Shown in pieces: positions 1 to 9,213 of a stretch of 64,000 nt of DNA. The position numbers and the translations under genes were made by a program. Numbering within the stretch: position 1 is the stretch's first letter; each line of letters opens with the position of its first letter. The stretch is from the NCBI GenBank assembly GCA_948144175.1, contig CANXME010000043.1:1363501-1427500 (forward strand), read 5' to 3'. The notes under the pieces were generated by a model. It searched no databases and was not told the DNA's origin. It worked only from the letters and a program-made list of their open reading frames with translations. Source of the DNA: Closterium sp. NIES-65. Taxonomy: Eukaryota > Streptophyta > Zygnematophyceae > Desmidiales > Closteriaceae.

Positions 1-542
1 AGCGCAGCGCGCACAGGCCAGGTAGCCTGGAGATGAAGGGGAGAGGGGAGGAGAAAGTGCAATATCAGAAGCAGTCAACAAAATTCAACAGAGTCAAGGG
101 AAGCACACCTGCTCTTCCACCTCCAGCTGCACGTCAATCAGCGAGCCCGTGGCAGCGCAGCGCGCACAGGCCAGGTAGCCTGGAGATGAAGGGGAGAGGG
201 GAGGGGAAAGCGCAATATCAGAAGCAGTCAACAAAATTCAGCAGAGTCAAAGGAAGCACACTTGCTCCTCCCCCTCCAGCTGCATGTCAATGAGCGAGGC
301 CGTGGCATCGCAGCGTGCACACGCCAGGTTGCCTGGAGGCAGGGAAGAGTTGGGAGAGACTGATCCATAAAATTCAAAGAAGTCAACCGAGTCAACAGAA
401 GCACGCTTCTCCCTCACCTCCAGCTGCATACATATGAGCGAGCCTGTGGAGGAGCAACGGGCACAGGTAAGGTAGCCTGGAGGGCGGGAGAAGATTTTTG
501 AGGCGCCTAAAAAATCGTAGCAACGGGCACAGGAAAGGTAGC
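1..542 (-). repeat. Tandem array of OR exon 7 copies (~150-bp units)
   Basis: Copies of the GYLxCARC exon occur at 1-31 (cut by the window edge), 121-179 (GYLACARC, SLIDVQLE), 274-332 (GNLACARC, donor lost as GAGGGG), 418-476 (used exon) and 520-542 (5' fragment GYLSCARC only). The two leftmost units repeat at ~153 bp including intron sequence rich in AGTCAACAGA-type motifs. Complete copies have the same 59-bp length and phase, so inclusion of more than one would keep the frame. Confidence 0.85.

Positions 543-9213: not shown

Follow-up and report, generated by a model that had tools for sequence, protein, structure and literature searches.

Truncated copies of exon edges are the usual appearance of long introns in the genes that we sampled from Closterium sp. 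NIES-65, and they are not specific to the ORANGE gene. Such copies occur in all 20 resolved introns longer than 400 nt and in three of the ten shorter ones, and eight of the nine genes with resolved introns contain them, the ninth gene having supplied only one intron of 139 nt. An earlier note on this DNA had treated the abundance of decoy splice sites as peculiar to one gene, which does not hold; a search for exon fragments in introns of the same assembly, which that note had proposed on a genome-wide scale, found them in 23 of the 30 introns sampled. We consider it probable that the copies arose by tandem duplications of about 150 bp that crossed exon–intron borders, that they are neutral now, and that a copy and its exon often derive from diverged functional alleles.

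Structure of the ORANGE gene

The window, by which we mean the whole stretch of 64,000 nucleotides analyzed here, corresponds to positions 1363501–1427500 of contig C43 in an assembly of 874,075,685 bases and 2400 contigs. ORANGE lies on the minus strand and runs off the window at its left edge, and most of exon 7 and the whole of exon 8 were read in the flanking DNA outside the window. Exons 2–8 can be joined in a single reading frame that ends at a stop, the borders being AG/GT. The functional exons are positioned at 7566–7956 (exon 2), 6391–6549 (exon 3), 5923–6009 (exon 4), 5494–5570 (exon 5), 3615–3742 (exon 6) and 1–26 (the first 26 bases of exon 7, with about 173 more past the window edge); all of these, and all of the copies described below, are on the minus strand. 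A candidate for exon 1 was set aside because it is out of phase. Beside it, at 8660–8879, stand two copies of about 115 bp that have diverged to 75% identity; one of them ends in the donor-like GTGAGG, and the pair possibly represents end copies of exon 1.

The encoded protein is a probable ORANGE protein, in agreement with plant ORANGE (OR of Arabidopsis). The Pfam family DnaJ_CXXCXGXG, a C-terminal DnaJ-like zinc motif, gave only a sub-threshold match to it (E-value 0.23), and an NCBIfam search of the protein gave no relevant match. The gene next to ORANGE, beyond the window, encodes an AP2 domain. The ORANGE region is also present on contigs C1794 and C1835, with 98–100% identity by block, and C1835 carries 5,000 N through the middle of the region. 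According to the available text of the genome report (PMC10407611), NIES-65 is haploid and more than half of its shared gene groups are duplicated, which fits the two near-identical contigs per gene observed here.

Truncated exon copies in ORANGE

Each ORANGE exon was extended by 25-nt flanks and compared by alignment with the nearby sequence, and matches were kept when their score exceeded those of 20 local shuffles. Truncated copies were found for six of the seven exons tested (exons 2–7), and the same alignment and shuffle threshold returned none for exon 8. The 27 copies comprise 17 that carry the acceptor and exon start and lie upstream of the exon, six that carry the exon end and donor and lie downstream, three internal fragments and one start-type fragment positioned downstream. 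These results agree with the earlier note, which had stated that nearly every ORANGE exon has truncated copies, with upstream copies keeping the acceptor and exon start and downstream copies keeping the exon end and donor. After masking of long minisatellite arrays, a local copy was present for 17 of 31 ORANGE segments, whereas elsewhere in the window 5 of 294 segments had one (at two loci), as did 1 of 59 segments of the 3′ flank.

Exon 2 has three upstream copies, namely a partial copy of exon bases 20–91 that lacks the first 19 bases (8352–8424, 88% identity) and two start copies with AG (8194–8316, 80%; 8033–8137, 77%), and one downstream end copy with GT (6862–7000, 92%). Between functional exon 2 and this end copy, 458 bp (7062–7519) are taken up by a (CAG)n/(CCG)n array. 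Two upstream start copies with AG belong to exon 3 (6739–6805, 79%; 6628–6682, 93%), and one to exon 4 (6098–6160, 86%), which also has two weak fragments. Downstream of exon 5 are two end copies with GT (5339–5412 and 5182–5251, each 89%) and a fragment of exon bases 1–47 (5087–5147, 82%), the sole match that breaks the position rule.

Exon 6 is the most heavily copied, with eight start copies upstream. The AG is intact at 4828–4899 (85%), 4413–4506 (88%), 4267–4349 (90%), 4121–4203 (90%), 3979–4057 (94%) and 3818–3898 (85%) and has been lost to CG at 4671–4731 (85%); the remaining start copy is at 4556–4616 (90%). Its end is represented by a downstream copy with GT beyond a (CA)n array (669–762, 95%) and by two matches (3527–3612) inside a 21-bp array with repeated GT, delimited by TRF at 3525–3633. 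The latter array consists of five 21-bp repeats of the exon end, each with a GT donor, and as the repeat is seven codons long, splicing at another of these donors would insert MYCHGSG units without a frameshift. The (CA)n array (789–3527) is nearly pure, extends over 2.7 kb of intron 6 and separates two end copies of exon 6; at this site the intron is more than 2 kb shorter on contig C1794. Four start pieces with AG lie upstream of exon 7, a short one at 520–548 (86% over 29 nt) and others at 411–482 (78%), 267–356 (83%) and 116–204 (96%). As functional exon 7 is at the window edge (1–26 and beyond), these four pieces at 116–548 are decoys.

Exon copies in other genes

The sample comprised ORANGE, two alaS genes and chaperonin genes, giving 30 resolved introns in nine genes, mostly housekeeping. 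Eight of 11 chaperonin groups were taken in, the grouping of contigs being our own reading, and the chaperonins CCTa and CCTh yielded no resolved junction. To resolve junctions we used the frame, the continuity of the HMM match and the site score, and low-score junctions in CCTd, CCTe and alaS-1 were excluded, as were pairs across large HMM gaps. Start copies were observed in 20 of the 30 introns (46 copies) and end copies in 18 (36 copies, including the 25-bp and 21-bp arrays), and the seven introns free of copies measure 139–352 nt. At a score of at least 36, wrong-side matches were found for 4 of 30, all in ORANGE, where in our reading exons of 77–128 nt let a query cover most of the exon.

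Arrangement, spacing and intron length

At the 13 exons with both borders established, the 46 copies fall into 24 start copies upstream, 10 end copies downstream, one start copy downstream and 11 internal pieces. No whole-exon copy was found among the 46, compared with 2.6 expected, a difference that is not significant; duplicated whole exons or mutually exclusive exons were rejected because none of the 46 has both acceptor and donor. In all 15 introns that have both kinds of copy, every end copy precedes every start copy. The copy positions and this order bear out the proposal in the earlier note that local duplications occurred again and again, each with one break in the exon and the other in the intron. 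Against border-crossing units stand the 11 of 46 copies that touch neither border and the one that lies on the wrong side.

Neighboring copies are spaced at a median of 150 bp (interquartile range 141–172), with 51 of 62 spacings within 100–200 bp. Each further copy goes with 121 bp of additional intron length (SE 15; r 0.84) when two micro-arrays are capped and with 103 bp (r 0.80) when they are not. Exon-derived sequence, counted with a constant score threshold of 32 and no shuffled control, makes up 5,928 of 18,825 unmasked intron bases (31%), and 49 of 66 self-repeat pairs within introns involve such sequence. The exon parts of copies are on average 88–90% identical to the exon, but homology of the intronic flank, which a border-crossing unit should also carry, is detectable in only 24 of 62 copies (p < 0.05; 14 of 41 start copies and 10 of 21 end copies), being clear in the younger ones; this, too, counts against border-crossing units. 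The flank tests, like the codon tests below, covered 24 of the 30 introns, the six omitted having no copies.

Decoy splice sites

Where a copy reaches the border, the AG is intact in 37 of 41 cases and the GT in 22 of 22. Decoy donors score 8.7, compared with 9.6 for real donors (p 0.43; 21 versus 30 sites), and decoy acceptors 8.9, compared with 9.3 (p 0.81; 41 versus 30 sites), and the decoys score well above other GT or AG dinucleotides in the introns. The many decoy splice sites described in the earlier note are thus present, with scores like those of real sites. Inspection by eye of the truncated ends of copies revealed no consistent partner splice site and gave no support to the isoform diversity that the earlier note had considered, and the possibility that copies are complete microexons was rejected because their junctions show no consistent second site. 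The decoys are probably ignored since an exon needs two splice sites and a copy offers just one of them. Decoys of real strength beside real sites provide a natural test of splice-site choice.

Turnover between near-identical contigs

A second contig was compared for seven of the nine genes, and 78 of 82 copies in these seven genes were also found on it, the comparison having been made in one direction only. Copy number nevertheless varies between near-identical contigs, which indicates that the process is recent and that single events can be dissected. The exon 7 array of ORANGE has three long start copies on C43 versus five on C1794; one of the extra copies repeats an existing copy exactly, and the other is absent from C43. 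In alaS-2, contig C1689 carries a start copy with a 184-bp unit and contig C418 lacks both. The flank of this copy and that of the functional exon on C418 match at 99%, whereas the flank of the functional exon on C1689 matches at 74%, and the extra copy itself differs from the two functional exons at 9 and 11 of 90 positions. Between the two contigs, the functional exons show six differences in the first 87 nt, all at third positions, and the last 66 nt together with the next 60 intron nt are identical. Together these observations indicate that, when the unit was gained or lost, a tract of a diverged functional version was brought in as well, and alaS-2 therefore shows one exchange tract.

Present constraint and coding history

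With clustered differences removed, the contigs differ at 11 of 8,890 exon positions (nine of them third positions), 14 of 5,107 copy positions (8:2:4 by codon position) and 92 of 28,497 intron positions (copy versus intron, p 0.68; copy versus exon, p 0.06). The unfiltered counts are 16 of 8,949, 40 of 5,309 (18:7:15) and 135 of 28,845, respectively, and 31 of the 40 copy differences are in ORANGE, mostly in array units out of register. In these small numbers, the copies now change like intron, without protein constraint.

The accumulated differences between copy and exon, which range from 2 to 25% per copy, have a different character. By codon position they amount to 131 of 1,885, 86 of 1,882 and 409 of 1,875 in 84 copies, and to 68:36:208 when one copy per border is taken (39 copies). 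The third-position share is thus 0.65–0.67 overall and 0.60–0.71 in every divergence class, compared with 0.41–0.44 for simulated copies that were neutral from birth and were passed through the same aligner. Synonymous and non-synonymous changes stand at 314:184, compared with 135:363 if changes were random, and only three stops occur in 1464 codons; of the indels in copies, however, 37 of 46 shift the frame. Among the changes that detached copies now undergo, 4 of 14 are at third positions, versus 409 of 626 in the accumulated differences (p 0.008). Alignment bias as a cause of the third-position excess is excluded by the simulation, and CpG decay was rejected because the changes are balanced (144 GC>AT versus 148 AT>GC); gene conversion between copy and exon was dismissed by reasoning, as it would not lift the third-position share. 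These patterns fit a reading in which most of the divergence between copy and exon arose while both were functional alleles, the copy having been free for a shorter time. From the third-position bias together with the alaS-2 tract, we infer exchange with diverged alleles; no donor allele was found.

Origin of the copies

In the explanation that we favor, short tandem duplications of about 150 bp each would have had units spanning an exon–intron border. Duplication across the acceptor would produce a nonfunctional exon start on the upstream side, and duplication across the donor a nonfunctional exon end on the downstream side; such events would be tolerated because the exon itself remains whole. 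Introns in most of the sampled genes have grown in this stepwise way, as shown by the positions and spacing of the copies, by the relation of intron length to copy number and by the difference in copy number between near-identical contigs. In many cases copy and exon would go back to separate, diverged functional alleles that recombination or repair had brought together at exon edges; tandem duplication is the probable event and diverged alleles the probable source. The unit size may be linked to chromatin or Okazaki fragments, and interference between close splice sites could also set a lower bound on it. A more far-reaching version, to which we give somewhat less than an even chance, would view introns as nested archives of older alleles, with exon edges captured in nucleosome-sized steps of about 150 bp, as the main and still ongoing form of intron growth, and with full-strength decoys ignored by the spliceosome. 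The capture would take place in hybrid or very diverse crosses, where only exons would offer the homology used in recombination or break repair.

The simplest competitor is plain tandem duplication within one lineage, with copies neutral from birth and no involvement of diverged alleles. It would suffice for the positions and spacing of the copies and for their present neutrality, but the observed third-position share exceeds the simulated one, and in alaS-2 six third-position changes lie beside the gain or loss of a copy. A mutational bias toward third positions in detached copies, which would rescue this explanation, is not seen (4 of 14), and we regard plain duplication as unlikely. Less likely still is that the copies are functional now, through alternative or stepwise (nested) splicing or some other role kept by selection. 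Function would explain both the intact splice sites, which score like real ones (AG 37 of 41, GT 22 of 22), and the coding signature of third-position bias and rare stops (3 in 1464 codons). It is, however, at variance with a rate of change between contigs like that of intron and without third-position bias, with the frameshifts in 37 of 46 indels, with truncated ends that by eye have no consistent partner site, with spacings of which only 24 of 62 are divisible by three, and with copy numbers that vary between contigs.

Long simple repeats nearby, such as (CA)n at 789–3527 and (CAG)n at 7062–7519, might suggest an assembly artefact, and the copies might also be interleaved exons of separate paralogous genes. 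Both are very improbable: the copies diverge from the exon by 2–25%, nearly all of them recur on a second contig (78 of 82 in seven genes), and an exon of a paralogue would bring the second border, which is never present (0 of 46 whole copies). The presence of the ORANGE region on C1794 and C1835 itself makes an assembly artefact very unlikely. Introner-like mobile elements, in the sense of a repeat family inserted in many introns, could account for the recurrence of units near 150 bp across many genes, but the units match their own border: at a score of at least 36, a match was obtained in 37 of 60 comparisons of a border with its own intron and in 2 of 1540 comparisons across genes. This explanation is refuted for the introns tested, with borders as the only queries, and we assign it a negligible probability overall.

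Relation to known systems

Intron growth is commonly credited to transposons and simple repeats; in the sampled genes, much of the extra intron length comes from a different process, which advances in steps of about 150 bp. Tandem exon duplication and mutually exclusive exons likewise involve local exon copies, but there the copies are whole and have both splice sites, in contrast to 0 of 46 here. The closest known system is a case in potato, in which, in the available text of its report, a duplicated piece crosses an intron–exon border, so that part of the exon, acceptor included, remains on the upstream side (PMC4974935). The border-crossing piece is common to both systems; as described there, however, the potato case is a single event that produced a new intron, whereas here there are many events at both borders and in most of the long introns sampled, with intron growth as the effect seen. 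The same text describes intron gain by duplication of an exon segment containing AGGT, where splice sites are also supplied by tandem duplication, but that segment is exonic, whereas the units here span the border and their copies are located within introns already present (PMC4974935). Introners resemble the present units in being numerous and in affecting introns genome-wide, but in the portion of the literature available to us their families are common to different genes, whereas here each unit matches its own border (PMC9860276). Partial duplications of MSH1 in green plants also copied exon sequence into an intron of the same gene, in blocks of many exons as far as the available text describes them (PMC10487979), whereas here individual exon edges are copied at intervals of about 150 bp.

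No account of introns filled with border copies was found in the open literature, most subscription journals lying outside the search. We regard the pattern as a new form of the known border-crossing tandem duplication, distinguished by many events, by the use of both borders and by intron growth. If the coding signature does reflect allele capture, introns would be readable as a record of past allelic or hybrid exchange.

The remainder of the window (9000–64000) consists mostly of Copia-like retroelement open reading frames on both strands, as judged by eye from the list of open reading frames, with many G+C-rich minisatellites. Outside recognizable genes, a tandem repeat of about 155 bp in 3.6 copies is positioned at 22433–22997, with a unit size as in the exon-edge copies.
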